Part shown: piece by piece, positions 24 to 64,000 of the stretch
Layout of the letters: each line of letters begins with the position of its first letter
Numbering within the stretch: the stretch's first letter is position 1
Assembly (NCBI RefSeq): GCF_014306105.1
Contig: NZ_JACRVF010000007.1
Coordinates: 62,001-126,000, forward strand
Source of the DNA: Pontibacter cellulosilyticus
GTDB lineage: Bacteria; Bacteroidota; Bacteroidia; Cytophagales; Hymenobacteraceae
Length of the DNA: 64,000 nt
Reading direction: 5' to 3'
Made by a program: the position numbers and the translations under genes
Notes under the pieces: model-generated
Databases searched by the model: none
The model's input: only the letters and a program-made list of their open reading frames with translations
What the model was told of the DNA's origin: nothing

Positions 24-3000
24 ATGAGAAGATTAAGCCTATGGCTTGTTGCTACAGCAATGGCAACAGCCACAACGGCGTTTGCACAGCGTGGCGATGC
101 ACCTAGTGTTCGCGCTAATGTATCGGAGCTGGGCCGTATTGCCGTGGCAGCAGAAAAAGACTACAAAGCTAGCCGGAACAAGGCATTACAGCTCGCCAAA
201 AAGCATGGTTGGGTAGTAGAAAAAACCTATTCTGACGGTACATTCATTTCCTTGCAGGGCCTGGATGCCAAAGGCATGCCTATTTACTACATCACGTACA
301 ATAACTCCAGAGCAGCTGCATCTGTGGGCACAACTGAGCTTTGGGCCGGCGGTTCGCTTGGGCTTAGCTTGAGTGGTGCCAGCAATTCGGTAGCAGAAAA
401 ACTGGGTGTTTGGGATGGCGGCCGCGTAAGAGAATCGCATCAGGAGCTAACCGGCAGGGTAATACAAAAAGACAATCCTTCTTCTTCGAGCGAACACGCA
501 ACGCACGTAGCCGGAACCATGATGGCCAAAGGCGTTAACCCACTGGCAAAAGGCATGTCGTTTGGCTTAAAGAAACTCGCAGCATACGACTTTAGCAACG
601 ATGTATCGGAGATGGCGGCGGCGGCAAGCGAGTTACTAATCTCTAACCACTCGTATGGGGCTATTACCGGTTGGCGCTACAACTCTGATCGCAAAGGCAC
701 CACCGAAGATCCTTATTGGGAATGGTGGGGTGATACGGAAATAAGCGCTACTGAAGACTACAGGTTTGGCTACTACAACGAAACTGCCTCTAGTTGGGAT
801 CGCATTGCTTACAATGCTCCTTACTACCTAATTGTTAAATCTGCAGGCAACAACCGTGTAGAAAATGGCCCTGCCGTAGGTCAGCCATACTACCAGCGCG
901 ATAACGCTGGCAAGTTCACCAAAATAGATGCACGCCCAGCCGGCATGAACTTCAACAACGGCTTTGACATCATCTCTACCTACGGCACTGCTAAAAATAT
1001 ACTGACTGTAGGCGCTGTGAACCCTATTTCGGAGGGTTACAGAGATACTTCTGACGTGGTGATCTCCTCATTCAGCAGCTTTGGACCTACAGACGATGGC
1101 CGTATTAAGCCAGATCTGGTGGGAAACGGCGTGTCGGTACTATCTACATCAGATAAAAGTAATACAGCTTATACTTCGCTGAGCGGTACTTCTATGGCAT
1201 CTCCGAACGTAGCCGGCAGCTTACTGCTGTTACAGGAGCACTATGCTAACCTGAAGAACGGCCAGGTAATGCGAGCCGCCACTTTAAAAGGTCTGGCTAT
1301 ACATACCACAGACGAAGCCGGCAAAACTGCTGGTCCAGACTATAAGTTCGGCTGGGGATTGCTCAATGTGAAGCGCGCGGCTTCTGTTATATCTAACACA
1401 AACAATACAAACCTTATCCAGGAGAACTCCTTGGCGCAAGGACAGACCTATACTTACCAGGTTGTTGCCTCAGGCTCTGGGCCATTAGTGGTAACTATTT
1501 CCTGGACAGATCCGGAGGCTACTCCTTTTGCTATAGGCTCTTCTGCACTTAACAACCGCACAGCACGACTCATTAACGATATTGATGTCCGTGTAGCTAA
1601 GGGCAGCACAATTTACCAGCCTTGGGTGCTTGATCCGGCAAGTCCGGCGAGCGCGGCCACCACCGGCGATAATAAGCTGGACAATGTGGAGCAGGTAAAG
1701 ATCATGAACGCTGTGCCTGGCGAAACTTATACTATAACTGTTAATCATAAAGGCACTTTGCTAAAAGGCCCGCAGGCTTACTCAATGATCGTTAGCGGCA
1801 TTGGTGGTACAGCTGTTTGCGAAAGCAAGGCAACCTCGGATCAGGGTACGCAACTAACAAAAGTAACGCTTGGCAATACGTTCTATTCTTTTATAGGTGG
1901 CTGCAGGACTTACATGAACCTGACAGACAGAATTTTTATGTTTGAGCCAGGACAGCAGCAAAACCTTAGCTTGGAGCTTGGCACGTGCACTACGGATGCT
2001 GCAAAGATTGCAAAAGTATACATTGACTGGAATCGCAACGGAAGCTTTACAGATGCCGGAGAAGAAGTAGCTGCCTCAACAGTATTAAATGGCAATGCTA
2101 CCTTTACAGGATCTATTACAGCACCAGCCACGGCTCAGGTAGGTACTTCGGCACGTATGCGCATTGTAGTGCAGGAAACAAGCAACAGCGCAGATGTAAC
2201 TTCTTGTGGCACCTATAGCAGAGGCGAAACGCAGGATTATCTAGTGCAGTTTGTCCAGCCGAAGAAAGATGTAGGTGTGTCGGCTGTACTGCCAGTTGGT
2301 ACTTCGCTATGCGCAAACCCGGCACAGCAGATTGTGGTGAACATAAAGAACTATGGCACTACTTCTCAGAGCAATATCCCAGTTACAGTTAGTGTACTTA
2401 AAAACAACGCAGAGATAAAGCAAATATCATTTATATACATACCAGTGCTAGAGCCTAATGCACAGGTAGAAGTGCTGTTAAGCGAGACATTTGCTACAGA
2501 AGCAGGCGCAACGTATGAGTTTGTAGCCACTGCTGCTTTACAGGGCGATCCGGTAGAGGAGAACAACCGCAAGATACGCGCCTTTAGCGTTGGCACTCCA
2601 GCCGGCACACCAGTTAATGCCTCTGCGTTTCGCTGCGGCACTGACCCGAACTATGCGCTTTCGGCCACAGGCAATGGCGCTGTTTACTGGTACAACTCTG
2701 CCACCAGCACAACACCAATTGCCGCCGGCAATCAGATCTTAGTACCTGCTTCACAGATTAACGGAAAACTATTTGCAGCCTATAATGATTTTGCTGGAAC
2801 GATAGGGCCAGCAAACAAGAAGTTTGCATCAGGTGGTGGCTATAATACTTTCTCACCGGATGTGATAATCAACACAAAAGCTCCTGTTATTTTAGAAAGC
2901 GCCAGGCTATACATTGGCAATAGCGGAAAAATCACCTTTACTGTATTTAATGAGGAGGGTGCCCCTGTTTCAGCCAAAACATTATATGTAACCGCTACAC

Positions 3001-3788
3001 GCTCTACTCCAGCTCCGGGACCACAAACAGATGATCCGAGCGACCAAGGCGCTATTTATTATCTGGGATTAGAGTTACCTGCAGCCGGCACTTATAACAT
3101 TGCTATTTCCTACGAAAACGGCGCTACCATTTTCAGGAATAACGCCGGCGTTACAGGTTATCCATTCCAGGTAGGTAATGTGGTATCGATAACAGGCAAT
3201 ACGGCTACTACCACGCCAGAGTCTTACTACTACTACTTCTACGACATGAAGGTGCGTGCCCTGGGCTGCGCCGGACCACGTGTAGAAGCCATTATCAAAG
3301 GAGGCACTCCGCTTCAGCAGCCTGCTATATCGCGCAGCGAGCAGAAACTTGTATCCAGCGCTGCAGAGGGCAACCAGTGGTACAAAGATGATAAGCCAGT
3401 AGCTGGTGCGACCGGAAAAGAGTTCTCACCAACTGAGAGCGGCAACTACAGCGTGAAAGTATTTAAAGACGGCTGTATCTCGGAAATGTCGATGGCTTAC
3501 AACTTCTCTTATAAGCCGGGTATTCGTGAGTTGGGAACAGAATTGGTTGTATCGCCTAACCCTACCACAGGCCGCTTCAGGTTTGAGCTGGAGACAAGCC
3601 AGCCAGAAGACATTAACTTTGAGGTAGTGGATATGCTGGGCAACTTTATACTTTCTGGTAAAGTGGAGAACTACTACGGCCAGTACGAAGGCTTTATTAA
3701 CCTAAGCGACAAAGCCTCCGGTCTGTACATATTCAGGCTACGACACGGCGACAAGTCATATTCAGAAAAAATACTGGTGCAGCACTAA
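24..3788 (+). CDS. Secreted S8 (subtilisin-like) serine protease with T9SS type A sorting domain
   Basis: The 1254-residue protein starts with a signal peptide (about residues 1-22). The catalytic triad can be read as Asp131 (WDGGRV), His158 (HATHVAGT, a variant of HGTHVAGT) and Ser390 (SGTSMASP). The spacing and the WDGG context resemble the Kp43-type S8 subgroup. After the protease come a beta-rich region, a GEVED domain (about 633-745, with DWNRNGSFTDAGEE), a CARDB-like segment (about 747-870), an Ig-like segment (about 1096-1160) and a C-terminal sorting domain (about 1169-1254, with VSPNPTTGRF and ending in EKILVQH). By family knowledge it is exported by Sec, crosses the outer membrane through T9SS and works at the surface or outside the cell on proteins. 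Only 23 bases lie upstream, so promoter and operon context are unknown. A strong palindromic terminator follows. Confidence 0.93.
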   Translation: MRRLSLWLVATAMATATTAFAQRGDAPSVRANVSELGRIAVAAEKDYKASRNKALQLAKKHGWVVEKTYSDGTFISLQGLDAKGMPIYYITYNNSRAAASVGTTELWAGGSLGLSLSGASNSVAEKLGVWDGGRVRESHQELTGRVIQKDNPSSSSEHATHVAGTMMAKGVNPLAKGMSFGLKKLAAYDFSNDVSEMAAAASELLISNHSYGAITGWRYNSDRKGTTEDPYWEWWGDTEISATEDYRFGYYNETASSWDRIAYNAPYYLIVKSAGNNRVENGPAVGQPYYQRDNAGKFTKIDARPAGMNFNNGFDIISTYGTAKNILTVGAVNPISEGYRDTSDVVISSFSSFGPTDDGRIKPDLVGNGVSVLSTSDKSNTAYTSLSGTSMASPNVAGSLLLLQEHYANLKNGQVMRAATLKGLAIHTTDEAGKTAGPDYKFGWGLLNVKRAASVISNTNNTNLIQENSLAQGQTYTYQVVASGSGPLVVTISWTDPEATPFAIGSSALNNRTARLINDIDVRVAKGSTIYQPWVLDPASPASAATTGDNKLDNVEQVKIMNAVPGETYTITVNHKGTLLKGPQAYSMIVSGIGGTAVCESKATSDQGTQLTKVTLGNTFYSFIGGCRTYMNLTDRIFMFEPGQQQNLSLELGTCTTDAAKIAKVYIDWNRNGSFTDAGEEVAASTVLNGNATFTGSITAPATAQVGTSARMRIVVQETSNSADVTSCGTYSRGETQDYLVQFVQPKKDVGVSAVLPVGTSLCANPAQQIVVNIKNYGTTSQSNIPVTVSVLKNNAEIKQISFIYIPVLEPNAQVEVLLSETFATEAGATYEFVATAALQGDPVEENNRKIRAFSVGTPAGTPVNASAFRCGTDPNYALSATGNGAVYWYNSATSTTPIAAGNQILVPASQINGKLFAAYNDFAGTIGPANKKFASGGGYNTFSPDVIINTKAPVILESARLYIGNSGKITFTVFNEEGAPVSAKTLYVTATRSTPAPGPQTDDPSDQGAIYYLGLELPAAGTYNIAISYENGATIFRNNAGVTGYPFQVGNVVSITGNTATTTPESYYYYFYDMKVRALGCAGPRVEAIIKGGTPLQQPAISRSEQKLVSSAAEGNQWYKDDKPVAGATGKEFSPTESGNYSVKVFKDGCISEMSMAYNFSYKPGIRELGTELVVSPNPTTGRFRFELETSQPEDINFEVVDMLGNFILSGKVENYYGQYEGFINLSDKASGLYIFRLRHGDKSYSEKILVQH

Positions 3789-3794
3789 TAGGCA

Positions 3795-3848: not shown

Positions 3849-3879
3849 TTATTTAGCCACTATTCTCTAATTTGGCTCT

Positions 3880-4425: not shown

Positions 4426-4438
4426 AACAGCAAAGTAT

Positions 4439-4485: not shown

Positions 4486-4499
4486 ATATTTACAGTATT

Positions 4500-7037
4500 C
4501 TATGATTTCTTGAGCTTATCCTTTACAGTTAAGTAATCGATGTAGTATAAAATCTTAACAGATAATGAGTTAGTTTGCGGAGTTGATAAAGTTCGGGAGA
4601 AGTTGTCGAAATACTCCGGTATAACTCTGTTACCGCCCTCCGATATGGCGTTCTTCCAAACTATACTTATCTCGCTGCCTGGTGCAAACCACCACGAATA
4701 CACCATATCTATGTTAAAAGCGTTGAAGTTAACATTGTGATTTCTGTCAACAAACCTTCCGTTATAGCCTTGTGGGTAGCTATCAGGTTGTAACTCACCC
4801 TCCGGCGTTAAATTATAGAAGCGGTTATACTTAGCACTAGACCAATAATGGCGCGCTCTCAGAGATAAGGACATCTTGTTGTTAAAGATGTAGCTGCCTG
4901 AAAGCGTGTTAGATGTAGTTAAACGATCTCGCAAACCAAATATAACCCTGGTTGTACTACCCACCCCATTTTCGTAACCAAAGCTGTTAGCATAGCCCAT
5001 GTCATCGTACATCATGTTGCGGCTAAAGCTATAATTAAAAGACAGCTGGTTATTTACCCGATAGCGTGGCGAAACAGAAAAACTGATGTTGCGTCGGTCA
5101 TTCTCATCAAAAACACGATAGCTGCCATTTACATCCAGTGCTAGCTTTTTGCGATAATCTGTAGACATCCAAACCCCAACGCTGTTGTTTACCGGGTATA
5201 CATAGTGGCGACCTTGTACACGGGGCTCAAAAAAATCATTTGCTTTAACAGGCGCCACATTTAACCACATGCCTGCGTTCCAGAAATTTTTAAAAGTACC
5301 GCTCAGATTGCTGTAGATAAAAAAGTTTTGAAAGGTATTAGGCTCATACCTGCGCTCATAAATTGCACCTATGTTGCTGTACATATTCAGTAGTTTCCAG
5401 AACGGCTTGTACTTGTTGTACTGTAGATGCACATTCTCCTCAATATTGTTAGGCGTAAAAAGTAAGCCCAGATCGTTTGGGTTATAAGTATCCGACTCAA
5501 CCGTGTGGTTAATATTGTAGGTAAAATTGCCGCTTACCTTTCCAGCCCCAATGCGGTACATGTAGCCTAAGTCGGTGCTATCGGAGAAGTAACGTTGGCT
5601 AAGGGCTGCTTTACCGTTTATGGCATACTTGTTCTCCTTGTTTGCTAACCTGAATACCATGCCGGTTAAGTTGGCATCATAGGTGCTGCCTTGCCGCGTT
5701 ACGTTTGTGTTTATCAGCGTAACATAAGAGTTATTTTTAAGCGACTGGTCCAGCACTGTAATGTTGTAGTTGGTTAGTGGCTGTGTTTCTACTTCAAGCC
5801 TGTCTCCTTCCTCATTCTCTAAAGTGGCAAACTGACGCCCTACCACAGCATTAAACACACCTATACCTAAACCAGACTGTGTACGCCCAGAAATTTTTGT
5901 ACCGTTGATCATTTTGGTCTCGGCAGGATTATCGATTACAGTATAGCCTGCATATTTTTCTTTTGTGTCGATGTAGGAATTAATAGGTCTGCCCCCAATG
6001 CGTCTGGAATAAAGAAAGCCTCCTTTACTGAAAAGCTCTGTGCCTTCTATAAAGAAAGGACGGTTCTCATTGAACTGAATTTCAAAAGGGCTCAGGTTGA
6101 GCACCTGGTTATCAGATTGTACCTGACTAAAATCCGGGATTAGCGTCATATCCAGCGTAAAAGCATCGTTAATGCCATACTTCAGGTCCAAGCCGCCACT
6201 AAAGTTAAAGTCCTCTTTATAGTTAACATTCTCTCCGCTACCGTTTGGATAGCTGTTTGCCTGGCCGGCAACATAAGGCGTAAGCGATAAGCGCAAAGGA
6301 GCTTCCACGTTCTTTATTCCTGTTAACTTGCCCCACTGGTTCACAAAACCGTTTTTAGCTGGATTTACAAAGTTCCAGAAATAACCCTGTCTGGTAGACT
6401 GGCGGTTACGCATAAAGTTTAGCCCCCATAGCTGCTCTGGTTTGCTGCCGAAACGAATGGCTGAATACGGAATTTTAAACTCTGCCACCCAGCTGTTGCC
6501 CTGTAGGCTAGTATTACTTTCCCATACGGCATTCCAGCTAAAATCTTCTCCATTGGAAGAGTAACGGGCATCCAGCTGCACCCCCGCAGGCGTTGTAAAA
6601 AAGCCAAATCCGTTTATCTCATCGTTATAAGTATCCAAGAAAACCCCGAAAAAGTCTGTGTTGCCAAAGTTGTCGCGGCTGCCTAACTGCCGCAGTATGC
6701 TATCCTGCGAAACGTCGTGCATAACGGCGCCTACATAAATAGCTACGTCATCATAAAGTATGCGCACTTCAGTTTTGTGCTTTTCCAGTGGCCCGGGCGT
6801 GGGCCTGTTCTGAATAAAATCTGTTGCTACCTGCGCACTTTGCCAGATGGCTTCATCAAGGGTACCGTCAATTTTAGGAGGCTCGCTGATGCGCAGCGCG
6901 TTTAGTTGTTTTTGAGGATAATTATACTCTTTCTTTTGTTCCTGAGCATTGGCTTTAAATGTAAAGCAGGAGGCAAAGAAGAGTAACAGAACGAGGAGCT
7001 GCTGCGTGTTGCACAACAGGAGTAGCGGTTTCTTCAT
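4500..7037 (-). CDS. DUF5916 outer-membrane protein with N-terminal CBM9-like domain
   Basis: The 845-residue protein has a signal peptide (about 1-31) and then a CBM9_2-like domain (about 45-235; EPPKIDGTLDEAIWQ, the typical entry motif). A long beta-strand-rich region follows, typical of DUF5916 and predicted to form an outer-membrane barrel. Members of this family are common in Bacteroidota. They are usually annotated as carbohydrate-binding family 9-like proteins, and their substrate is unknown. The C-terminus (YYIDYLTVKDKLKKS) does not end in the usual aromatic residue. The gene appears monocistronic: it ends at a bidirectional terminator and has 241 bases of non-coding DNA upstream. Confidence 0.88.
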   Translation of the reverse strand: MKKPLLLLCNTQQLLVLLLFFASCFTFKANAQEQKKEYNYPQKQLNALRISEPPKIDGTLDEAIWQSAQVATDFIQNRPTPGPLEKHKTEVRILYDDVAIYVGAVMHDVSQDSILRQLGSRDNFGNTDFFGVFLDTYNDEINGFGFFTTPAGVQLDARYSSNGEDFSWNAVWESNTSLQGNSWVAEFKIPYSAIRFGSKPEQLWGLNFMRNRQSTRQGYFWNFVNPAKNGFVNQWGKLTGIKNVEAPLRLSLTPYVAGQANSYPNGSGENVNYKEDFNFSGGLDLKYGINDAFTLDMTLIPDFSQVQSDNQVLNLSPFEIQFNENRPFFIEGTELFSKGGFLYSRRIGGRPINSYIDTKEKYAGYTVIDNPAETKMINGTKISGRTQSGLGIGVFNAVVGRQFATLENEEGDRLEVETQPLTNYNITVLDQSLKNNSYVTLINTNVTRQGSTYDANLTGMVFRLANKENKYAINGKAALSQRYFSDSTDLGYMYRIGAGKVSGNFTYNINHTVESDTYNPNDLGLLFTPNNIEENVHLQYNKYKPFWKLLNMYSNIGAIYERRYEPNTFQNFFIYSNLSGTFKNFWNAGMWLNVAPVKANDFFEPRVQGRHYVYPVNNSVGVWMSTDYRKKLALDVNGSYRVFDENDRRNISFSVSPRYRVNNQLSFNYSFSRNMMYDDMGYANSFGYENGVGSTTRVIFGLRDRLTTSNTLSGSYIFNNKMSLSLRARHYWSSAKYNRFYNLTPEGELQPDSYPQGYNGRFVDRNHNVNFNAFNIDMVYSWWFAPGSEISIVWKNAISEGGNRVIPEYFDNFSRTLSTPQTNSLSVKILYYIDYLTVKDKLKKS

Positions 7038-7278
7038 AGTTTAGTATAGGTACAATCAGAAATAGGAACTAAGTAAAATAAAAGATGCAGCGGGTATAGC
7101 AAGGGTTGCTTTTGCTTAGCTTTTTTTTAATGCTCCGGCACGCGATTCTTTTAAAATGGCTGCAAGGTATACCAACTGCAAAAATCTGGCTAATAGAATA
7201 GATATACCCCTTATAACAAAAGGCACAATGCTAATAATATAGGCTGTAGCAGTTTTGCTTTATATGATACTGTGCCTC

Positions 7279-8964
7279 TTACTGCTTTGAATTTATTTCT
7301 CTCTGCAGCTCTTTAACTTCTTTGTGGTCAGGGTTTAGAGCAAGTGCTTTTTCAACAGTATTCCTTGCATCGATAGGTTTATTATTAAGAAGCTGCGCTT
7401 TTGCCAACCCCAGCAATGGCCATACTTCTTTTGGGTGCAGGCTACTTACATACGAGTACCAACCAGCCGCTTCGTTAAACTTCTTCTGCTCTAATAAGTG
7501 CTTACCAAACTCCTTCTCCGTGGTCTCTAGTACCTGGGCATTGTACCTGCTGTCGTTTTTGTAACGGATGTAGGTCCATGTGGCGCTGTTAAAGCCGCTT
7601 TTATCAAACACCGCTTTTACAATGTCAGCCATATTACCATTAAAGGTAAGCGCTGCATCCAATACAGGGTCCTGTCCTTTAAAATAGGTTGATGCAGTAT
7701 AAGCAACCGGAATATCAGGTGTAGTCCAAGGGCGATTTTCATTACCGTTCCAGTCGCGCCAGTAAATGCTAGAAGCCCTTACGGTAAGTTTGCTATTGGG
7801 CAGCTGAAACTTTTTAGAGTCGCCATAGCCGCTTGGCGAGGCGCCGGATGGTTCACCTACAAATAAAGTATTGGTAAAATACTCCAGGTTGTTAGCCAGC
7901 ATTTGTGCGGCAGAGAAAGTTTCGCGGCCTATTAAAGTATAAAGCTTGCCAAATTGGTTAAGCTCATTTAGCCGAACCAATGCCAGCACCAGTGGGCGCG
8001 ATAGGAAATTATTTCCGCCAGGGTTATGCCGCAAATCGAGCACAAGGCGTTCTACTTTGTTTTCTGCAACTGCCTGCTCTATCCTTTTAGTAAAGTCTAC
8101 CAGCAGCTCGTCTTCTTTATCATATACTTCATTTAGCTGAACATACAGCGCCCTGTGGTTTGGCAGATAGGTCATCCAGAACTTATCTTTCAACCTGCTT
8201 TCGCTTAGAGCCACCGGTATTTTAAGGGCTGCAGGAGCACCTACAAACTGTACTGCTTTAAACATAGGAAGGGCATCCAATTCTACTGTACGTAGCTTCC
8301 CCTTAGTGTCCTTTATCTTTAGCTGTACCTGTGTTCTCGTTTTAGCCAAGTTGAATGTATGCAGTATCTCCGGCACCTCCAGGTACTTAGAGGCCTGAAA
8401 CTTAAAGCCAATCTCATTATCGTAGTGTGTGGCAGGTCTGATCTTTTCTAAGGCATCCTCGGCAGGAACGGTTCCTACCTCAATTACTTTAGCACTAATC
8501 AAATCTTTATACTTTGGGGCAGCCTCCTTTATATAAAGTCCATCGTCAAACCACTCAAACCTGACCGGCAACTGATGAAAGAAGAGTGCAGAATCCGAAG
8601 GAGGAGGCGTAGTAGTATGTGCACGGCTGTGGGCTACGGCAAGGTCCTGAGGCAGCGTGAGGCGGGTGTGCCCGTCACCTAGCATTGCTATCAAGCGTGC
8701 AAAGCCTACTATAATTTTATGGTCTTCCAGCATAGGAATCTGTTGGCTTAGCTCTGCAACAGCACTGTCGAAAGCAACTCTGGTTATTTTATGAAATGGT
8801 TCCCGATGCTTTTTAGGTAACTCACTAGCCAGGTGCTGCAGGTCTTGCTGCCACTGCTCTGCCGTTAATACTCTAGGCTGTGCATTAGCCACAAAAGTTA
8901 ACTGCAACAGGAAAAACACCAGCAAAGCGTTCTTTCGAAATAGGGCTGTAGAAGTTAATCGCAT
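7279..8964 (-). CDS. Secreted S41-like peptidase with C-terminal TPR region
   Basis: A signal peptide (about 1-28) is followed by an N-terminal helical region and an S41 (tail-specific protease) core with LRHNPGG and a nucleophile region RETFSAAQM, in which Ser351 is the likely catalytic serine. The FGKG lysine motif of CtpA proteins is not obvious, so activity may follow the tricorn/IRBP-like branch, or be lost. Residues from about 470 contain TPR-like helices (WPLLGLAKAQLLNNKP, ARNTVEKALALNPDH). No PDZ domain is clear. It is probably periplasmic or extracellular. The gene stands alone: the gene upstream of it on the same strand, the GroES-like gene, is closed off by its own terminator at 9066-9102. 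Confidence 0.85.
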   Translation of the reverse strand: MRLTSTALFRKNALLVFFLLQLTFVANAQPRVLTAEQWQQDLQHLASELPKKHREPFHKITRVAFDSAVAELSQQIPMLEDHKIIVGFARLIAMLGDGHTRLTLPQDLAVAHSRAHTTTPPPSDSALFFHQLPVRFEWFDDGLYIKEAAPKYKDLISAKVIEVGTVPAEDALEKIRPATHYDNEIGFKFQASKYLEVPEILHTFNLAKTRTQVQLKIKDTKGKLRTVELDALPMFKAVQFVGAPAALKIPVALSESRLKDKFWMTYLPNHRALYVQLNEVYDKEDELLVDFTKRIEQAVAENKVERLVLDLRHNPGGNNFLSRPLVLALVRLNELNQFGKLYTLIGRETFSAAQMLANNLEYFTNTLFVGEPSGASPSGYGDSKKFQLPNSKLTVRASSIYWRDWNGNENRPWTTPDIPVAYTASTYFKGQDPVLDAALTFNGNMADIVKAVFDKSGFNSATWTYIRYKNDSRYNAQVLETTEKEFGKHLLEQKKFNEAAGWYSYVSSLHPKEVWPLLGLAKAQLLNNKPIDARNTVEKALALNPDHKEVKELQREINSKQ

Positions 8965-9518: not shown

Positions 9519-9519
9519 C

Positions 9520-33643: not shown

Positions 33644-33655
33644 CATGAGTTTATA

Positions 33656-33689
33656 CTTTGCTGCAGGGCTTACGGGCCCTGCAGCAAAG
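33656..33689. terminator. Bidirectional hairpin after the serine hydrolase
   Basis: Arms CTTTGCTGCAGGGC (33656-33669) and GCCCTGCAGCAAAG (33676-33689) enclose six bases. TATACTT partly overlaps the left side (33652-33658). It can also end a small minus-strand ORF at 33700-33798. Confidence 0.75.
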
Positions 33690-33699
33690 TCTTTAAAAC

Positions 33700-33798
33700 T
33701 TAAACTGCAATTGCTGCTACCACGCTTATAGCAGCTAGCCATCCTGCTATTACCCAGTAAGCTATTGCTTCACTACTGGTTGGGTAAACTTTTTTCAT
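33700..33798 (-). CDS. Candidate 32-aa single-pass membrane miniprotein
   Basis: An ATG-initiated frame encodes MKKVYPTSSEAIAY followed by WVIAGWLAAISVVAAIAV. That is a short polar N-terminus with two lysines and then one transmembrane helix running to the end. It lies in a 597-base stretch without other genes, and its stop is 11 bases before a hairpin that can terminate on this strand. This layout is what a real small gene would show. No clear ribosome binding site is seen, as is common in Bacteroidota. Function unknown. Confidence 0.42.
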   Translation of the reverse strand: MKKVYPTSSEAIAYWVIAGWLAAISVVAAIAV

Positions 33799-34175
33799 AA
33801 CCGTTCAATTTTATATTTGAATAATACATTAATGTTAAAACACCTAAGTGCTTTAGTATTAATAGTATACGGCTATAACAAAAGATATGTTTATTCCAAT
33901 GCACCACATTTCTTTTCAGAAACATGTACAACATATAACATAGATACAAAACTATATTTTTAAAAATATATAATACTGTAAATCAATAATTTACAGTAAC
34001 TACTTTCTGAACACCCACGGACAACCAACCGACTTAATTAATAGGACATTATTAAGAGCGCATCCTCTTTTCCCTCTACAGTAGATTCGCAACATCTTCG
34101 CTCAAGCTCTATCAAACAAAATTGTGAGGTAGCTTTATTTCCCATCTTGGAGTTTGATCAACGCCTGCACCTGCA
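33799..34175. other. AT-rich gene-free stretch with two inverted repeats
   Basis: No convincing ORF is seen. A 15-base stem with G-T pairs and a 4-base loop lies at 33829-33862. A perfect inverted repeat TACTGTAAAT-CAATA-ATTTACAGTA lies at 33974-33998. Either could regulate the miniprotein at 33700-33798 or mark an unannotated small RNA. The rest shows no recognisable structure. Confidence 0.4.
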
Positions 34176-34221
34176 GTAAAAGGAAAGGCCCCTGCTATTT
34201 AGCAGGGGCCTTTCCTTTTAC
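34176..34221 (-). terminator. Terminator of ettA
   Basis: Perfect 21-base arms (34176-34196, 34201-34221; core AAAGGCCCCTGCT) around ATTT, 20 bases beyond the ettA stop on the minus strand. Confidence 0.85.
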
Positions 34222-34240
34222 ATTATAGCTTAAAATAAGC

Positions 34241-35911
34241 TTAAGCAAGCTTCTTATAGCGGATTCGCTTCGGCTCAATGTCGCCCATACGCTTCTTCTT
34301 ATTCTCTTCGTACTCAGTGTAGTTACCCTCAAACCAGTATACCTGCGAGTCGCCTTCAAAAGCAAGGATGTGCGTACAGATACGGTCCAGGAACCAACGG
34401 TCGTGAGAGATGATAACGGCGCAACCGGCGAAGTTCTCAAGCGCGTCTTCCAGCGCACGGATCGCGTTCACGTCCAGGTCGTTGGTTGGCTCATCGAGTA
34501 ATAGTAAGTTGCCGCCTTCTTTCAGCGTCATGGCCAGGTGCACGCGGTTACGCTCACCACCCGACAGCTTCTCTACCTTCTTCTCCTGGTCACCACCCGA
34601 GAAGTTGAACTTGCTAACATAGGCACGTGAGTTAACCTGGCGTCCGGCCATCATCATATGCTCCGTACCACCTGAGATCACCTCAAACACCGACTTAGTC
34701 GAGTCAAGGTTAACGTGCTCCTGATCTACGTAAGAAGTCTGCACCGTAGAGCCCACCTCAAAGTTGCCTGCATCCGGCTTTTCCTGGCCAGTTATCAGCT
34801 TAAACAGAGTAGTTTTACCGGCGCCGTTCGGGCCGATGATACCCACGATACCACCTTGCGGAAGGGCAAAGTTAAGGTCTTCGAACAGCAGCTTATCGCC
34901 GTAGGCTTTGCTTACATGGTGCGCCTCTACGACCTGGCTACCCAAACGTGGGCCATCAGGTATGAAAAGCTCCAGTTTCTCTTCTTTCTTGGATGCATCT
35001 TCGCTGGCTAGTTTATCATATTGGCTAATACGCGCCTTAGATTTGGCATGACGGGCTTTCGGGGCCATACGCACCCACTCCAACTCGCGCTGTAATGTTT
35101 TCTGGCGCTTGCTTTCGGTTTTCTCCTCTTTGGCAAGGCGGGCAGCCTTCTGCTCTAACCAGCTGCTATAGTTGCCTTTCCACGGAATACCTTCGCCACG
35201 GTCCAGTTCCAGAATCCATCCGGCCACGTTGTCCAGGAAGTAACGGTCGTGGGTTACGGCGATAACAGTACCTTTGTACTGCTGCAGGTGCTGCTCCAAC
35301 CAGTCAACAGACTCAGCGTCCAGGTGGTTGGTAGGCTCGTCCAGCAATAGCACGTCTGGCTCCTGCAACAACAGGCGGCAAAGGGCCACGCGGCGCTTCT
35401 CACCACCCGACAGGTTACCGATGATAGCATCTTCCGGTGGTGTGCGCAAGGCATCCATGGCACGCTCCAGGCGGTTATCCAATTCCCAGGCGTTATAGTG
35501 GTCAAGTTTCTCCTGCACCTCACCCTGGCGCTGAATAAGCTTGTTCATCTCATCGTCGGTCATCTCCTCGGCAAACTTCATGTTTATCTCGTCGAACTCC
35601 TTCAACAAAGCCACCACTTCGCTTACGCCTTCTTCTACAACCTCACGCACTGTTTTGGTTGGGTCTAGCTGCGGCTCCTGCTCCAGGTAGCCAACACTGT
35701 ATCCTGGACTCCAGACTACTTCACCCTGAATCTGCTTATCAACTCCGGCAATGATTTTCAACAAGCTCGACTTACCAGAACCGTTCAGGCCCAGCACGCC
35801 AATCTTAGCGCCGTAGAAAAAAGACAGGTAAATATTTTTAAGCACTTGTTTCTGAGGCGGGTAGATTTTGCTTACCCCAGCCATCGAGAAAATAATGGTT
35901 TCGTTACTCAT
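34241..35911 (-). CDS. ettA: Energy-dependent translational throttle protein EttA (ABC-F)
   Basis: The 556-residue cytosolic protein has two ABC domains, with Walker A GLNGSGKS and GPNGAGKT, signatures LSGGEKRR and LSGGERN, and Walker [12 protein letters not shown] and [11 protein letters not shown]. They are joined by the linker that contacts tRNA in the ribosomal E site. EttA gates the first peptide bond according to ATP/ADP. The N-terminus ([14 protein letters not shown]) and C-terminus are typical of EttA rather than Uup or resistance ABC-F proteins. It stands alone, with its own terminator. Confidence 0.95.
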
Positions 35912-36066
35912 ACTTTAGCTTTATGATTGTTTGCTTATTTTTTGCTGCTGTTGGACGTGGTTATACGCGAGGGCACCACATTCACTAAAATTTCCCTAAA
36001 TATTTCGTACTGAATCACAAATATCGCAAAAAATCATGTCTTTGTGCTTCACAAAATTGATTTGAA

Positions 36067-36222
36067 ATGATTAAACTTGTAAAAACTGTATGGGTAAAGT
36101 GTGCCCAAACTTACTTTAGCACCAGGCCCGGCTTTATCTTGTTCCTATGGCTGCTGCACTACAAGCAGAATTTAGAGAACGCTGATAGCCAACCTGCGTA
36201 TGTTACAGTTAGTTTAAACTAA
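36067..36222 (+). CDS. Candidate small ORF (51 aa) in the ettA-DUF349 gap
   Basis: This ATG frame fills the middle of the 352-base region between ettA and the DUF349 gene. It encodes a basic N-terminus (MIKLVKTVWVK), a hydrophobic patch GFILFLWLLHY (about 24-34) and a polar tail ending VTVSLN. A possible but imperfect -7 element (TGTCTTTG, 36037-36044) lies 22 bases upstream. No homologue is recognised and chance is not excluded. The rest of the gap shows nothing clear. Confidence 0.3.
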   Translation: MIKLVKTVWVKCAQTYFSTRPGFILFLWLLHYKQNLENADSQPAYVTVSLN

Positions 36223-36263
36223 ACGCCTTACCCTTTTTTCGATCCATAACCCAATCCAGTAAC

Positions 36264-37577
36264 ATGGAAAACAACAACCTATTGGAAGAAGCCAAAAAAT
36301 ATGGCTTTATTCAAGACCAGCAAGTGTGGTTAAAGCCCTTTATGAATTACCCAGCCAGACAGGTGGGTGAGGTAAAAGAGTCAGAAGATGATTCGCTGGT
36401 ATACTTCGCTAAGCGTTTCGAAATGTTCCAAGGCAAGGTAAACAGCCTGCTGGAGCGTATCGCAACCTCCGAAAACAAAGGCTCCTTTTTGATGAAGGTG
36501 CTGCACATGAAAGAGCAGGTAGGCAACTATGATGCTCTTGGCGATTTTGAGCAGGTCTACCATACGCTTACCAAGGCAGAGGAAGACATCAACGAAACCA
36601 TAAAACAGAATCGCGAAAAAAATCTCTCTACAAAAATTGCCCTGATACAGGAAGCAGAGGCACACAGCAACAGCATTGAGTGGAAAGAAGCCACTGAAAA
36701 GCTGAAAGACCTGCGCAGCACCTGGATCAAAACCGGCCCTGTAGAAAAAGAACTGACCGACGAAATAGAAGAGCGTTTCCGGAATGCCATCGATAAGTTT
36801 TTTGAGCGTAAGAAAAACTACTTCGAGGACAAGAAGCGCATGCTCAACCGCACATACGAGCGGTACAGAGACCTTATCAGGCAATCGGTGGCTTTACAGA
36901 ACTCAGAGGACTGGGAAGGCACTACAGCCAAACTAAAGCAACTCCAAAACCAGTGGAAAGAAGTAGGCGGCAACCTGCCACGCAAAACCACCACTAACCT
37001 GTGGACGGAGTTCCGCAAGGCACACAACCATTTCTTTGACCGCCTGAAGCAGAAAATAAACAACGAGAAGAACGAGTCGAGGGAGAAGTACTACGAGGTT
37101 AACTTCGAGCGCAAGAAAGAATTGGCTATACAAGCCGAAAAGCTGCTGCAGCAAAACAGCCTGAATGATGCCGTTAAAGGCGCTAAAGAACTGCAGGCCG
37201 AGTGGAAAAAGGTAGGACCTGTGCACCCAAGTGTGTCAGATATGATCTGGGAACGCTTTATCAAAGCCTGCGACAGGGTATTTGAGATGAGCAGCCTAGA
37301 GCATTACATCCGTAAGCGCCAGCAAGCCGGAAACGAAACCTTTACTGAAACAGACGGTTTACAGGCACGCATCAACGCACTAAGGGATTTCATCAAATCC
37401 GACAAAAACGAGCTGAGCCTTTTAGAAGACAACTTAGGCAAGTTGAGTGATGCGCCTGGCAACGACTCGTTCCGCAACATGTTGAAGGGTAAAATCCGTA
37501 ACTTTAACCGCAAGATCAACACCAAGCAGGAACTAATCGAGATGTTTCAGGGCCAGTTGAGCGCCATAACTAAGTAA
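36264..37577 (+). CDS. DUF349 repeat protein
   Basis: The 437-residue acidic and basic, highly helical protein carries repeated DUF349 units (about 100-345), each with a pattern like LKQLQNQWKEVG or AKELQAEWKKVGPV followed by LWTEFRKAHNHFFD or IWERFIKACDRVFE. Coiled-coil segments fill the ends. It is cytosolic and of unknown biochemical function; it is one of the very common conserved proteins of Bacteroidota. It is a single gene with a strong terminator. Confidence 0.9.
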   Translation: MENNNLLEEAKKYGFIQDQQVWLKPFMNYPARQVGEVKESEDDSLVYFAKRFEMFQGKVNSLLERIATSENKGSFLMKVLHMKEQVGNYDALGDFEQVYHTLTKAEEDINETIKQNREKNLSTKIALIQEAEAHSNSIEWKEATEKLKDLRSTWIKTGPVEKELTDEIEERFRNAIDKFFERKKNYFEDKKRMLNRTYERYRDLIRQSVALQNSEDWEGTTAKLKQLQNQWKEVGGNLPRKTTTNLWTEFRKAHNHFFDRLKQKINNEKNESREKYYEVNFERKKELAIQAEKLLQQNSLNDAVKGAKELQAEWKKVGPVHPSVSDMIWERFIKACDRVFEMSSLEHYIRKRQQAGNETFTETDGLQARINALRDFIKSDKNELSLLEDNLGKLSDAPGNDSFRNMLKGKIRNFNRKINTKQELIEMFQGQLSAITK

Positions 37578-37597
37578 TTGCAAACATAGTATAGAAG

Positions 37598-37630
37598 CGC
37601 CTGCTACAGCTGTAGCAGGCGTTTTTTTTT
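37598..37630 (+). terminator. Rho-independent terminator of the DUF349 gene
   Basis: A perfect palindrome (CGCCTGCTACAG/CTGTAGCAGGCG, 37598-37621) is followed by a run of T. Classical intrinsic terminator. Confidence 0.9.
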
Positions 37631-37780
37631 GCTCAAACACAAGCACTTCACCTCTTGTTAGAATTGCACGAAAAAATATGTGCGTTTTTGAACATTTGTG
37701 CCTTATTTGCGTTGTGTTGTTAAAAACAGACAAAAAAGCAATTTATTTGAGTAAAAAATTTTAGTTTTTATATTTATTCA

Positions 37781-37788
37781 TACTTTTG
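37781..37788 (+). promoter_or_regulatory. -7 element and ribosome binding site of the DUF2795 gene
   Basis: TACTTTTG matches TAnnTTTG and is followed by C. A purine-rich AAAGGAGA lies about 8 bases before the ATG at 37831, unusually strong for this phylum, so high expression is plausible. The -33 element is unclear. Confidence 0.35.
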
Positions 37789-37830
37789 CAATCCATTCAA
37801 AACAGCCAATAAGTTAAAGGAGAAAATACT

Positions 37831-38052
37831 ATGTACTGGACACTTGAATTAGCCTCATACCTGGAAGATGCACCCTGGCCAGCAACAAAAGACGAGTTAA
37901 TCGACTTTTCAATTCGCTCAGGTGCCCCAATGGAAGTTGTAGAAAACCTACAAGCCCTGGAAGACGACGGACAGCCTTACGAGAACATCGAAGAGATCTG
38001 GCCTGATTATCCTACGAAAGAGGATTTCATGTTTAACGAAGACGAGTACTAA
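37831..38052 (+). CDS. DUF2795 small acidic protein
   Basis: The 73-residue protein starts MYWTLELASYLEDAPWPATKDELIDFS and ends with a strongly acidic tail (EDFMFNEDEY). This matches the DUF2795 family, conserved in Bacteroidota and other phyla, whose function is unknown. A good SD-like sequence and a -7 element precede it, suggesting strong constitutive expression. It is a single cytosolic gene followed by an AT-rich palindromic repeat. Confidence 0.88.
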   Translation: MYWTLELASYLEDAPWPATKDELIDFSIRSGAPMEVVENLQALEDDGQPYENIEEIWPDYPTKEDFMFNEDEY

Positions 38053-38055
38053 GGC

Positions 38056-38141
38056 TAATTAGAAATTACGAATTAGGAATTAGAAATTGCTCTTAAAGGA
38101 TACTCACATTTCTAATTTTGAATCTCTAATTTTTAATTAAT
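38056..38141. repeat. AT-rich imperfect palindromic intergenic element
   Basis: The left half (AATTAGAAATTACGAATTAG, then AATTAGAAATT) is mirrored imperfectly by the right half (ATTTCTAATTTTGAATCTC, then TAATTTTTAATT). It fills the space between the DUF2795 gene and the ABC ATPase gene. A similar element lies at 60181-60279. Confidence 0.5.
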
Positions 38142-38147
38142 CTGATC

Positions 38148-38873
38148 TTGATCGTTGAAGTAAAAAACTTGGTTGCGGGTTATGGCCATAGGGTCCTGAT
38201 TCGCAACCTTTCTTTTTCTGTACCCTCTCCTGCCTTTGTGGCAATTATTGGCCATAACGGTGCAGGCAAAACAACCTTTTTCAAAGCTTTTCAGCAGAAA
38301 ATCGATTATGAAGGGCAACTGCTGCTACATAACCAAGACCTGAAGCAACTTTCCAATCCTGCTGAAAAAGGCCTGCTCTCTTACCTCCCGCAGAAAAACG
38401 TAATAAACTTCCCGATAAAGGTGCACGACCTGGTAGTGATGGGCTTATTCCGGAAGAAGCGATTTTTTGAGAATTACGATACCGCAGATTATACACAGGC
38501 AGCTCAAATATTAGAGCAATTGCAACTCTCCCACCTCATCGACCACGACTTCACGACTTTATCCGGAGGAGAGCAACAGCTAGTATGGCTGGCACAACTG
38601 ATGCTGCAGGACGCTGAGATCATATTTTTAGATGAGCCGACCCAACAGTTGGATGTATACTATAAAAATAAGGTATTTAGCCTGCTGCAGGATTGGGCGA
38701 TAACAAAGGGCAAAACCATACTTTGCATCACACACGACTTGAGTAACCTGGTCCCTCTGCAGGGCTACCTGCTAAACCTTTCTAAGCCTGAACCTATACT
38801 TGAACCTATTTCAGCTGAGGTTGTTCAGGAGAATCAAGTTTTTCTGGAGGCTGGGCGGCAGGTAATTTCATAG
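38148..38873 (+). CDS. Orphan ABC transporter ATPase (FecE/HmuV-like)
   Basis: Translation most likely starts at TTG (38148), giving 241 residues; no ATG precedes the conserved N-terminus (EVKNLVAGYG). Walker A GHNGAGKTT, Q-loop LPQKNVINFP, signature LSGGEQQ, Walker B IIFLDEP and H-loop ITHD are all intact. The overall pattern resembles ATPases of iron-chelate, haem or zinc importers. No permease or binding-protein gene is adjacent, so its partner is elsewhere. It is separated from the ispD gene by a nested inverted-repeat element. Confidence 0.85.
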   Translation: MIVEVKNLVAGYGHRVLIRNLSFSVPSPAFVAIIGHNGAGKTTFFKAFQQKIDYEGQLLLHNQDLKQLSNPAEKGLLSYLPQKNVINFPIKVHDLVVMGLFRKKRFFENYDTADYTQAAQILEQLQLSHLIDHDFTTLSGGEQQLVWLAQLMLQDAEIIFLDEPTQQLDVYYKNKVFSLLQDWAITKGKTILCITHDLSNLVPLQGYLLNLSKPEPILEPISAEVVQENQVFLEAGRQVIS

Positions 38874-60172: not shown

Positions 60173-60180
60173 TTACGGTT

Positions 60181-60279
60181 AATTATAAATTATTGATTAT
60201 GAATGATGATACACTTAAACAGATAAACAGACTAAAGTTTGCCAAAATTCATAATTAATAATTCAGCATTTATAATTCC
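60181..60279. repeat. AT-rich imperfect palindromic intergenic element
   Basis: AATTATAAATTATTGATTAT (from 60181) is mirrored by AATTATTAATTATGAATTTT (complement of 60245-60264). It fills the 110-base gap between the PAP2-like gene and rpoN and resembles the element at 38056-38141. Confidence 0.5.
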
Positions 60280-60282
60280 ATA

Positions 60283-61722
60283 CTATAACTCTTTACGCAG
60301 GCGAGCCACAGGTATATTTAGCTGCTCTCTATACTTGGCTACGGTACGGCGGGCAATGTTATAGCCTTTATCGTTCAGCATCTTCTCTATTTTCTCGTCA
60401 GAGAGTGGTTTGCGCTTGCTCTCGTTGTCGATGATTTCCTTTAGGATATGCTTTACTTCACGGCTGCTGGCATCCTCGCCAGAATCAGTGGCAATACCCT
60501 CTGAGAAGAAATACTTAAGCGGGTAGATACCAAACTCCGTCTGTACGGCTTTGCTGTTGGCCACACGGCTTACAGTACTGATGTCCATACCGATCTCCTC
60601 GGCAATATCTTTCAGGATCATCGGGCGCAGCATACTTTCATCACCTTCCAAAAAGAAGTCGTGCTGGTATTTGATGATAGCCTCCATCGTGCGCAGCAGC
60701 GTGTTCTGGCGCTGGCGAATGGCATCAATAAACCACTTGGCCGCATCCAGCTTCTGCTTCACGAAAGCCACCGTCTCCTTCAGCTTCTTATCCTTCTTGT
60801 CCGACTTATCATAGGCATCGAACATGTCGGCATAAGAACGGCTGATGCGCAGGTCCGGGGCGTTGCGCGAGTTAAGCGACAGCTCCAGTTCCCCGTTGTT
60901 ATTGTTAAGTATAAAATCCGGGATGATGTACTGCACGCGTGTCATGCTGGCACCTGCCCCACCCGGCTTAGGATTCAGCTTAATGATCAGGTCGATAGCC
61001 TTTTTCAGCTCCTCCTCCGATACCCCGAATTTGCTCTGAATTTTGGAGTAGTGCTTTTTAGAGAACTCATCGAATGTTTCTCGGATAATGCGCTCGGCAA
61101 GAATGGTTGTCTCATCCTGTTCGCGGCGCTCCAGTTGTAGCAGCAGGCACTCCGGCAGATCGCGTGCACCTATACCTGCTGGGTCAAAGGTCTGGATCAG
61201 GTGCAACACCTGCTCAATCTCTTCTTCAGAGGTTTCGATATTTTGCGAAAAAGCAAGGTCGTTGGCAATAGAGCTCAATTCCCGGCGAATATAGCCGTCA
61301 TGGTCTATACTTCCGATCAGCTGCATGCCAATGTTATACTGCTTATCGTCCAGGCTCAGGAAGCTCAGCTGGTCCATAAGCGAGTCGGTTAGCGTAGAAG
61401 TCATGGCGATTGGCATCTCGCGGTCTTCTTCGTCATCGCCGCCACGGTCGCCCTGCATCTTATAACCGCTTATCTCGTCATCATGCAGATAGTCGTCTAT
61501 ATCAAGGTCATCGTCCTTGCTGTACTCCTCTTCGTAGTCGTCGGTGTCGCTGTATTCGTCTGTGTTTTCCTCACGCCCCTCTTCCAGTGCAGGGTTTACT
61601 TCCAGTTCTTCTTTTATGCGCATCTCCAACTCAGCAGTAGGTATCTGCAGCAGCTTGATAAATTGTATCTGCTGCGGCGATAGCTTCTGGGATAAAAGTT
61701 GTCTTAGATCGAGTCGCTGCAT
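60283..61722 (-). CDS. rpoN: RNA polymerase sigma-54 factor
   Basis: The 479-residue protein has the N-terminal region that binds activators (LSQKLSPQQIQFIKLLQIPTAELE), an acidic region II of about 80 residues (Asp/Glu/Tyr-rich, about 48-105), the core-binding region, and the C-terminal RpoN box ARRTVAKYREQLNIP, which recognises the -24 element. Sigma-54 needs an AAA+ enhancer-binding protein; none is in the window. A promoter of the housekeeping type lies upstream. The gene is transcribed divergently from asnS. Confidence 0.97.
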   Translation of the reverse strand: MQRLDLRQLLSQKLSPQQIQFIKLLQIPTAELEMRIKEELEVNPALEEGREENTDEYSDTDDYEEEYSKDDDLDIDDYLHDDEISGYKMQGDRGGDDEEDREMPIAMTSTLTDSLMDQLSFLSLDDKQYNIGMQLIGSIDHDGYIRRELSSIANDLAFSQNIETSEEEIEQVLHLIQTFDPAGIGARDLPECLLLQLERREQDETTILAERIIRETFDEFSKKHYSKIQSKFGVSEEELKKAIDLIIKLNPKPGGAGASMTRVQYIIPDFILNNNNGELELSLNSRNAPDLRISRSYADMFDAYDKSDKKDKKLKETVAFVKQKLDAAKWFIDAIRQRQNTLLRTMEAIIKYQHDFFLEGDESMLRPMILKDIAEEIGMDISTVSRVANSKAVQTEFGIYPLKYFFSEGIATDSGEDASSREVKHILKEIIDNESKRKPLSDEKIEKMLNDKGYNIARRTVAKYREQLNIPVARLRKEL

Positions 61723-61759
61723 AGTTTTTAGAAAAATCGGATACGCTTTCGCGCTACTT

Positions 61760-61791
61760 CAAATTTAGGATAATTTTACTCTAGTTTACAA
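61760..61791 (-). promoter_or_regulatory. Promoter of rpoN
   Basis: On the minus strand: TTG (61791-61789), 21 bases, TAAATTTG (61767-61760), 37 bases before the ATG. Confidence 0.42.
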
Positions 61792-61995
61792 AAAAGGTTA
61801 AAATATCGTTACTTTGAGGGATTTTTTAAGAAAATCGTTTAAGGCTGGCACATAAGCACCTATTTAAAGTATAAAGCAGTGGCAAAACCTTGTCTTACTA
61901 CAGCTACGTTAGCTAGGGATTTACTGCATTTGATTGTAAGTTTATACTTTCTAGGCCATTTTGTGCCTTTGATACAGGCAACATAACCATTACAC

Positions 61996-63435: not shown

Positions 63436-63455
63436 GAATTTTATACTTACAGAAG

Positions 63456-63480
63456 AGCCCGGCTATACTTTGGTCGGGCT
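63456..63480 (+). terminator. Terminator of asnS with TATACTT in the loop
   Basis: AGCCCG/CGGGCT stem, whose loop region contains TATACTT; followed by eight T. Confidence 0.78.
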
Positions 63481-63550
63481 TTTTTTGTGGCACCGACATC
63501 ACAGAACAGATTTTACCTTATATTCATCATTGATAACTATGTGATGCTAT

Positions 63551-64000
63551 ATGAGGAAATTTTATACCCTACTTTTCGCTGTGCTAGTGGTAACAGGTTC
63601 TGCTTTCGCCCAAACAGAATTCTCCAGCTTTCAGGTGCCATTCAGGTCGGCTGAGTATTTGAAGTCTTCTGTTTCTGCTGACGGCGAGATCTGCCTTTAT
63701 GCTTATAGCCAAAACCTTATACACCTGCTGCACCTCGACAGCAACGGACAGGTAAAAGCGCGTGCGTCTAACACAGCACCGCTGGGTGCAATGCCGCAAC
63801 TCCTCGGCGACCTCCCGCTCCGGGATAAATTTGTATACTTTGAGCGCAGAAACGGCCCTAACGGGGAAAAAATACAGCCATTTTACCTTAACAAGGCTGA
63901 TGGCAGGCTGCTACACGCCGAGGAAGCCGATCTGCCACTAGACCCGCGCAGCCAACTCCTGCAGGCCTTTACCTCCGACAGCACGTTTTATGCCTTGTAC
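63551..64000 (+). CDS. Exported protein, 3' end cut by the window
   Basis: An ATG frame is open from 63551 to the window edge (150 codons). The first 20 residues form a signal peptide (MRKFYTLLFAVLVV, ending AFAQ). The rest has short beta-strand segments with YERRNGPNGEK, FYLNKADGRLLHAEE and repeated YAYSQNLIHLLHLDSNG-like units, suggesting a beta-propeller or similar repeat fold. No family can be assigned from the fragment. Confidence 0.65.
   Translation, partial: MRKFYTLLFAVLVVTGSAFAQTEFSSFQVPFRSAEYLKSSVSADGEICLYAYSQNLIHLLHLDSNGQVKARASNTAPLGAMPQLLGDLPLRDKFVYFERRNGPNGEKIQPFYLNKADGRLLHAEEADLPLDPRSQLLQAFTSDSTFYALY

Follow-up and report, generated by a model that had tools for sequence, protein, structure and literature searches.

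A short DNA word, AAGTATA (TATACTT on the opposite strand), is dispersed through a 64,000-nucleotide stretch of the genome of Pontibacter cellulosilyticus (contig NZ_JACRVF010000007.1, positions 62,001 to 126,000), which we call the window. An earlier note, made from the letters of the window alone, had drawn attention to this word and raised the possibility of a DNA-uptake or self-recognition tag, or else of a binding site for an abundant nucleoid protein. We analysed the word in the window, in its own genome (G000; G numbers denote genomes and L numbers loci) and in relatives. The features of the window that enter the analysis are:

1170..63840, both strands: the dispersed word, AAGTATA (62) and TATACTT (74), 136 copies in an overlapping count, the first starting at 1170 and the last ending at 63840
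4826..7935: the longest word-free gap of the window, lying over the open reading frame (ORF) at 4500-7037
33652..38795: a second word-poor stretch, over the EttA gene and its neighbour, with a single word at 36400
60283..61722, minus strand: rpoN (sigma-54; NCBIfam TIGR02395), the anchor for finding relatives and for aligning word sites

Background models of Markov orders 0, 1, 2 and 3 predict 11.0, 10.4, 16.3 and 25.6 copies in the window; models of the higher orders already absorb parts of the word. The earlier count of about 135 copies against about 9 expected is therefore close to ours (136 against 10-11 at orders 0 and 1), and its near-equal split of about 74 and 62 between the orientations agrees exactly. 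The called genes of the window hold 104 copies, against 16.1 (standard deviation 3.4, maximum 27) in 100 rounds of shuffling that preserved the protein and the codon usage of each gene. Codon composition is thus not the explanation of the word, and an equal enrichment of words of the same codon composition, which the earlier note had named as an outcome that would speak against it, is not seen. Coding copies occupy all six phases in a pool of the window, the loci of 12 relatives and five further genome stretches, in keeping with the differing reading frames reported earlier. The accompanying claim that the ATA codon occurs mainly within the word does not hold: of 1094 isoleucine codons in genes called within the window, 344 are ATA, and a word encloses only 43 of these completely. 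Over the whole genome (4.61 Mb) we count 9120 copies (4391 + 4729), far above the 531 (263 + 268) of a reversed-word control, which supplies the genome-wide count that the earlier note had wanted. The heptamer is non-palindromic and its flanks are orientation-specific: 669 copies from 13 AAGTATA sequences, including the window, display the extended preference (A)AAGTATA(A/G)(A), with A at 0.45 in position -1, A at 0.55 or G at 0.24 in position +7 and A at 0.43 in position +8, and the extended word of this type can be written as AAAGTATAAA.

The RpoN protein of the window is 92-94% identical to those of several Pontibacter (e.g. P. aydingkolensis, P. chinhatensis and an uncultured Pontibacter sp.), the 94% matches being the uncultured Pontibacter sp. 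(L006) and P. aydingkolensis (L042). Comparison within the genus revealed that a word of about 10 bp with a common TATA core exists in dialects, AAGTATA, AGGTATA and AACTATA, whose profiles over about ten positions are (A)AAGTATA(A/G)(A), CAGGTATAGC and (A/C)AACTATA(A/G), respectively. Among 36 named Pontibacter/Botryobacter rpoN loci the top word is AAGTATA in 12, AGGTATA in 12 (counting L031, where CTATACC is ahead by one copy) and AACTATA in 3, two of which are also rich in AAGTATA above expectation (L024 and L028, with 45 and 29 copies); the remaining 9 carry a weak remnant or no such word. We counted AACTATA in all 50 genomes of the genus as wholes, and AAGTATA and AGGTATA in 37 of them. 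AAGTATA lies at 8.8-38.5 times its control in 19 of these 37 genomes, AGGTATA dominates in 9 of them, and AACTATA occurs 11,674-13,168 times in 5 of the 50, the highest count being that of a 4.3-Mb genome. AACTATA and AAGTATA are both abundant in two further genomes, G027 and G033, and AACTATA is partial in G071. With the typing of G059-G067 and G069-G071 for AAGTATA and AGGTATA taken from one 20-kb stretch each, the 50 genomes comprise 20 with AAGTATA, 3 mixed for AAGTATA and AACTATA (G027, G033, G067), 4 with AACTATA, 11 with AGGTATA, 11 weak or wordless, and one untyped (G068, whose 1142-base stretch without G or C holds none of the words). One or two dialects are present in 38, and the absence of the word from close relatives, another outcome considered at the outset, is likewise not what we find: most Pontibacter genomes have it. 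In the rpoN tree the AGGTATA loci form one clade, the AACTATA loci are nested within AAGTATA and wordless loci appear in several places, so that the dialects with their shared core agree with the phylogeny of this single gene. G033 (L177) and G067 (L206) have both AAGTATA and AACTATA at high density in one genome, possibly reflecting a dialect switch in progress. In 22 genomes of other families of the order (G037-G058) AAGTATA lies at 0.44-1.81 times its control, and the enrichment hence looks like a property of the genus.

The three dialects share a pattern of distribution along the DNA. Per kb, they number 5.8, 5.4 and 12.0 in the DNA that lies outside called genes and 1.65, 1.67 and 1.47 within genes, an intergenic excess of 3-8 times, where genes were called as simple longest ORFs and "intergenic" takes in missed genes and words at gene boundaries. 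Spacers between convergent genes are the densest and those between divergent genes the poorest in all three dialects, for AACTATA by a narrow margin. AAGTATA and AGGTATA use all reading phases in both senses; one of the six is absent among the 79 coding copies of AACTATA. A regulatory or promoter motif was rejected on these grounds, the words being rarest between divergent genes and at no fixed distance from gene starts, and so were paired terminators, as the 13 AAGTATA sequences contain merely 14 AAGTATACTT palindromes. In the window the spacing is clumpy rather than even (standard deviation 536, mean 464 bp). Chi and the FtsK-orienting polar sequences (KOPS) are polar motifs; the Pontibacter word, unlike them, shows no preference for one strand with respect to replication. 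The single-contig genome G022 was examined in 18 stretches, where 201 words are oriented with the GC skew and 176 against it; together with the even genome-wide split in G000 (4391 and 4729) this upholds the earlier argument against polar motifs.

Secondary contigs are word-poor, two of three clearly so. In the 60 kb examined of each, those of G001 (116 kb), G020 (204 kb) and G021 (74 kb) have 11, 31 and 18 words, where the genome-wide densities predict 76, 49 and 104 and base composition predicts about 7, 8 and 9; the contig of G020 is thus intermediate. Of its 31 words, 20 fall within one 20-kb stretch (L195, G020:C2:20001-40000), which is perhaps chromosome-derived DNA.

Alignment of homologous sites showed that the word is kept mainly between species of the same dialect. 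In pooled pairwise counts, whose pairs are not independent, the exact AAGTATA is kept at 1102 of 2043 aligned sites between 13 AAGTATA loci, where the seventh power of sequence identity predicts a fraction of 0.20, and the exact AGGTATA at 2580 of 3791 sites between 12 AGGTATA loci, where it predicts 0.29. Sites of AAGTATA are exact at only 14 of 342 positions in 5 AGGTATA loci; two sets of wordless loci, four in each, retain them exactly at 12 of 237 and 13 of 257 positions. The AAGTATA side of these comparisons comprised 5-6 loci. A further 47 of the 342 sites read AGGTATA in the AGGTATA loci, i.e. they are translated into the other dialect, as do 22 of the 237 in the first wordless set. In both AGGTATA and wordless loci, word positions 0, 3 and 6 differ most from AAGTATA (identity 0.41-0.55), as expected if the word was gained at synonymous sites. 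Single losses between AAGTATA loci affect all seven positions and include both transitions and transversions, which makes it unlikely that a single repair reaction is the maker of the word.

We then considered the machinery that might read such a word. ComEC, a ComEA-like HHH_3 protein (with three HHH_3 motifs, as shown for G000) and DprA are encoded in 41 of 41 genomes, and ComM in 50 of 50; ComEA and ComEC were among the proteins that the earlier note had suggested seeking. The PF00437 profile of type II/IV pilus motors (PilB/PilT/GspE) recovered just short P-loop stretches in 41 of 41 genomes, two of them slightly above the cut-off, and no full-length match; pilins were not searched. A type IV pilus component was consequently rejected as the reader: with no pilus-type motor found, there is no reason to expect a minor pilin of the ComP type, and another kind of receptor has to be assumed. 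The bacteroidete Riemerella, which lacks pili, is transformable by means of ComEC, DprA, ComM (YifB), an HHH protein and outer-membrane proteins (PMC8459023, in extract). Two surface candidates suggested by that organism were also rejected: 1) the PF18942 protein is present in 17 of 41 genomes, does not track the word and is absent from G000, and six of eight of its members of about 430 residues adjoin ORFs that look SusD-like by eye; 2) NamZ (PF07075, the DUF1343 protein of Riemerella) is encoded at least once in all 50 genomes, and where a second copy occurs it does not track the word. No surface-receptor candidate was recognised among the neighbours of comEC, the HHH gene and dprA. Beside the HHH gene lies an S9-peptidase-like gene, apparently for a lipoprotein (L171, 11929-13068, minus strand), which occurs there in 9 of 9 word-bearing genomes compared and in 2 of 5 wordless or weak ones (present in G002 and G034; not seen in G024, G026 and G028).

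The comM gene, whose product is a helicase of transformation, is repeatedly broken. Its open frame spans 512-577 residues in 44 of the 50 genomes and 226-380 in six, five of which belong to the 19 AAGTATA genomes (G001, G012, G020, G022, G032) and one to the AGGTATA dialect (G009). In G012, G020 and G032 (L212, L213 and L215) the match ends at residue 222-223; the unrelated DNA beyond it carries a tyrosine integrase, recognised by Pfam in the first two and as a similar split ORF by eye in the third; in G001 (L211) it ends at 355, with unrelated DNA thereafter and a resolvase-family ORF about 3.9 kb further on. In the comM-proximal part of these inserts, which is what we examined, the cargo includes a pair of SMODS and ThiF proteins resembling a cyclic-oligonucleotide-based antiphage signalling system (CBASS; G012) and a type ISP restriction-modification protein (G020). 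The lesion is a stop in G022 and a frameshift in G009; the sisters G012 and G022 have lesions that differ in kind or place, and the other lesions are scattered across the tree. The 9.1-9.6 kb after the broken comM of G001, G012, G020 and G032 contain 0, 6, 3 and 12 words, and the 10.4-10.9 kb before it 15, 15, 8 and 26. These inserts parallel the situation in Acinetobacter, in which islands, including ones with CBASS, interrupt comM and transformation falls when the gene is lost (PMC11472951, in extract); in Riemerella too, insertions in the ComM homologue cut transformation (PMC8459023, in extract).

Two genomes have lost competence genes in concert, with nearly all of the conserved neighbours checked still open. 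In G022 comM, comEC, dprA and the HHH gene are all broken (L151, L152, L153, L214): a check of 24 conserved orthologues across the three regions around its competence genes found comEC and dprA broken, and besides these just a doubtful ORF of 102 residues that fails in three other genomes as well, the HHH gene being too degraded to count. In G009 (L154, L155, L183, L216) comEC, dprA and comM carry lesions, and a stop at residue 15 of the HHH protein leaves a frame of 304 residues.

Broken comM is associated with fewer words. In whole-genome counts the five broken-comM genomes have the five lowest densities of the 19 AAGTATA genomes (0.82-1.46 per kb), with G032 (1.46) within rounding of the intact G035 (1.47) and G019 (1.49); the genome sizes of most relatives are rounded, and these three are not safely rankable. 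Aligned orthologous DNA from the comEC, HHH and comM regions was therefore compared in 19 genomes (G004 out, G062 in; not every region for each genome), which removes accessory DNA from the comparison. The ratio of words to those of intact partners in the same DNA is 0.43 in G020, 0.62 in G022, 0.64 in G032, 0.70 in G001 and 0.78 in G012, ranks 1, 2, 3, 4 and 7 from the lowest, and 0.71-1.30 in the 14 intact genomes. In regressions on the log ratio (N = 18; G004 and G062 absent from the phylogenetic fit, ratios entered at two decimals) the effect of comM is -0.47 (p 0.0006) with no phylogenetic weight, the best fit, and -0.46 (p 0.0011) with full phylogenetic weight, and p is 0.002-0.005 with GC as a covariate, in a test that comprises five broken genomes, two of them sisters with different lesions. 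At the level of sites, across three 20-kb regions (comEC, dprA, HHH), 38-41% of the word sites aligned from G000, G008 and G013 are kept in G022, and 55-71% of those of G022 are kept in these three genomes.

The enrichment, the dialects, the conservation mainly among users of the same dialect, the scarcity of words on secondary contigs (clear in two of three) and the association with an intact comM are observed features, and they form the pattern that an uptake-driven word predicts: it is asymmetric, comes in dialects, builds up where constraint is low, and is sparse in mobile-looking DNA and in genomes with a broken comM. On this sequence evidence we regard a self-recognition word driven by transformation, like the uptake sequences of Neisseria, as the probable explanation, and the uptake or self-recognition tag raised in the earlier note gains support from the dialects, the conservation among users, the low-density secondary contigs and the comM association. 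A causal role of transformation, action of the reader at the uptake step and not at a later one, and the nature of the reader are inferences from this pattern. The reader would most likely be a receptor at the surface or in the periplasm, belonging to an uptake machine that works without pili, for which ComEC, the three-HHH ComEA-like protein, DprA and ComM are encoded; the transformability of pilus-less Riemerella suggests placing it there. Such a receptor would prefer DNA bearing the dialect of its own species, which would be taken up and recombined more often, so that chance matches would spread and lost copies would be restored. The word would then accumulate wherever sequence is free to vary, i.e. 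in intergenic and synonymous positions, on both strands and in long-resident chromosomal DNA. A shift in the preference of the receptor could bring about a shift of dialect, and loss of the preference, or damage to transformation by islands or mutations in comM, would let the word decay. The fuller proposal, to which we give slightly better than even chances, is that Pontibacter possesses a self-recognition uptake system with at least three dialects, of an origin independent of those in Neisseriaceae and Pasteurellaceae, with a pilus-independent receptor, repeatedly dismantled by comM-breaking islands, and with word density recording the history of sexual exchange.

Several observations weigh against this explanation. 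No receptor was found among PF18942, PF07075 and the neighbours of the competence genes. The DNA after the broken comM of G032 is near the genome average (12 words in 9.4 kb) and not word-free. When whole-genome counts are divided by those of the reversed word, comM has a weaker effect (Mann-Whitney p 0.014; regression p 0.05-0.12); in aligned DNA the intact G021 (0.71) and G035 (0.77) fall within the range of the broken genomes, and G012 (0.78) is no different from its intact relative G035. Despite its lesioned competence genes, G009 has 2.0 words per kb, the second highest of nine AGGTATA genomes, and no sign of decay in aligned DNA, implying either that its loss of competence is recent or that the link is looser. 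G018 has a frameshifted ComEC, yet its AACTATA is dense. Finally, the ComM frame is full-length in each of the 11 genomes where the word is weak or absent, and the ComEC, DprA and HHH_3 genes are open in the 8 of these that were searched; as wordless species keep the competence genes examined, loss of the word there would mean that specificity was lost and not competence.

Among the alternatives, the one that survives best holds that an abundant protein of chromosome organisation or segregation binds the word, that the specificity of this protein has drifted from clade to clade, and that selection on the word was for binding rather than for exchange. A word on both strands, genome-wide and conserved at homologous places would suit such a protein, and the low density of secondary contigs could reflect chromosome-specific organisation. 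We consider it unlikely in view of the clumpy spacing in the window (standard deviation 536, mean 464 bp), a density that follows lack of constraint, copy numbers of up to 13,168 in 4.3 Mb, and the wordless loci scattered over the tree, which would require the protein to have been lost or changed repeatedly; nor does it predict the association with comM. That association is also predicted by a Chi-like signal acting after uptake, i.e. a word that biases which incoming or broken DNA recombines, since dependence on recombination functions such as ComM would follow, as would a short non-palindromic word. The lack of polarity, in which Chi and KOPS differ, and a density of 2-3 words per kb, far above that of known Chi sites, render this improbable.

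That the word was generated by a DNA methylase together with biased mismatch repair, in the manner of the highly iterated palindrome HIP1, appears to us very improbable. The alternates of cyanobacterial HIP1 are also tied to lineages and to matching methylases (PMC4390886, in extract), a resemblance to the dialects that is offset by the non-palindromic form of the Pontibacter word, by losses at all seven positions through several kinds of change, and by two of three secondary contigs being near background. PF01555 N6/N4 methylases are sporadic, found in 31 of 50 genomes and absent from 19 including G000, and were rejected as the partner of the word; C5, Eco57I/MmeI and N6_Mtase families were not searched genus-wide. 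A neutral compositional or codon artefact, or a regulatory or promoter motif, has an AT-rich core in its favour and nothing further, and is practically negligible given 104 copies against 16.1 in synonymous shuffles, 9120 against 531 for the reversed word, the greater abundance between convergent than divergent genes, and the 0.44-1.81 times control in the 22 genomes of other families.

As a transformation-driven self-recognition word, the Pontibacter word would have known counterparts. The dispersed uptake signal sequences (USS) of the Pasteurellaceae are kept by transformation bias and have species variants; they are longer words with spaced A/T tracts, depend on type IV pili and occur in Gammaproteobacteria. 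The Pontibacter word resembles them in being dispersed and in its variants between species. With the DNA uptake sequences (DUS) of the Neisseriaceae, read by the minor pilin ComP, it shares a non-palindromic form of about 10 bp, thousands of copies, permissive intergenic and coding sites, and several dialects that have a short common core and follow phylogeny (PMC3630211, in extract). It differs from DUS in its phylum, in a TATA rather than a CTG core, in the lack of a detected pilus or type II motor (41 of 41 genomes), in the few inverted pairs (14 AAGTATACTT in 13 AAGTATA sequences) and in that its role in uptake is putative. HIP1 is likewise highly iterated throughout the genome, with alternates in some lineages, but comprises GC-rich palindromes tied to methylases (PMC4390886, in extract), whereas the Pontibacter word is AT-rich, asymmetric, associated with comM and without a conserved PF01555 partner. 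R. columbina is reported to prefer its own DNA (PMC7965970, in extract); the extracts on Riemerella (PMC8459023, PMC7965970) report no over-represented uptake word, and the surface-protein domain PF18942 of Riemerella does not track the word in Pontibacter. In open-licence full text we found nothing joining Pontibacter with a DNA uptake sequence, an absence that is no proof; by title, none of the papers listed from that literature concerns an uptake word in Bacteroidetes/Bacteroidota or Cytophagales, and on over-represented motifs in Pontibacter genomes it yielded LexA only.

To our knowledge, uptake words are known from just two proteobacterial families and are tied there to type IV pili. If the self-recognition explanation is true, Pontibacter would represent a third origin, in a genus without a detected pilus motor, and both the reading of self-DNA without pili and the question of uptake drive versus selection as the origin of such words would become testable. 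This one genus offers dialects, genomes that mix them, sister species without the word and natural breaks of comM, with the broken-comM genomes providing a natural experiment for word decay. In practical terms, donor DNA supplied with the right dialect word could open these environmental bacteria to laboratory transformation.

Outside the genus, the top words of 44 non-Pontibacter loci were compiled and some of them followed further; none of the strongest is the Pontibacter word. Some are GC-rich and confined to called genes, for example in L052 and L065. In Spirosoma utsteinense (L051) clusters of AGTCGTA at about 927-1060 and 7260-7428, many spaced at about 9 bp, are two repeat arrays and not a dispersed word. 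At the rpoN locus of Rufibacter ruber (L041) AAAACAG is 7-fold over expectation, mainly intergenic, with many copies 10-11 bp apart in short runs. The rpoN locus of Spirosoma profusum (L057) contains the weakly enriched ACGTA/TACGT, with 111 copies in 14.2 kb, 3.6-fold over expectation and mostly genic, which is possibly another iterated word in Spirosoma.

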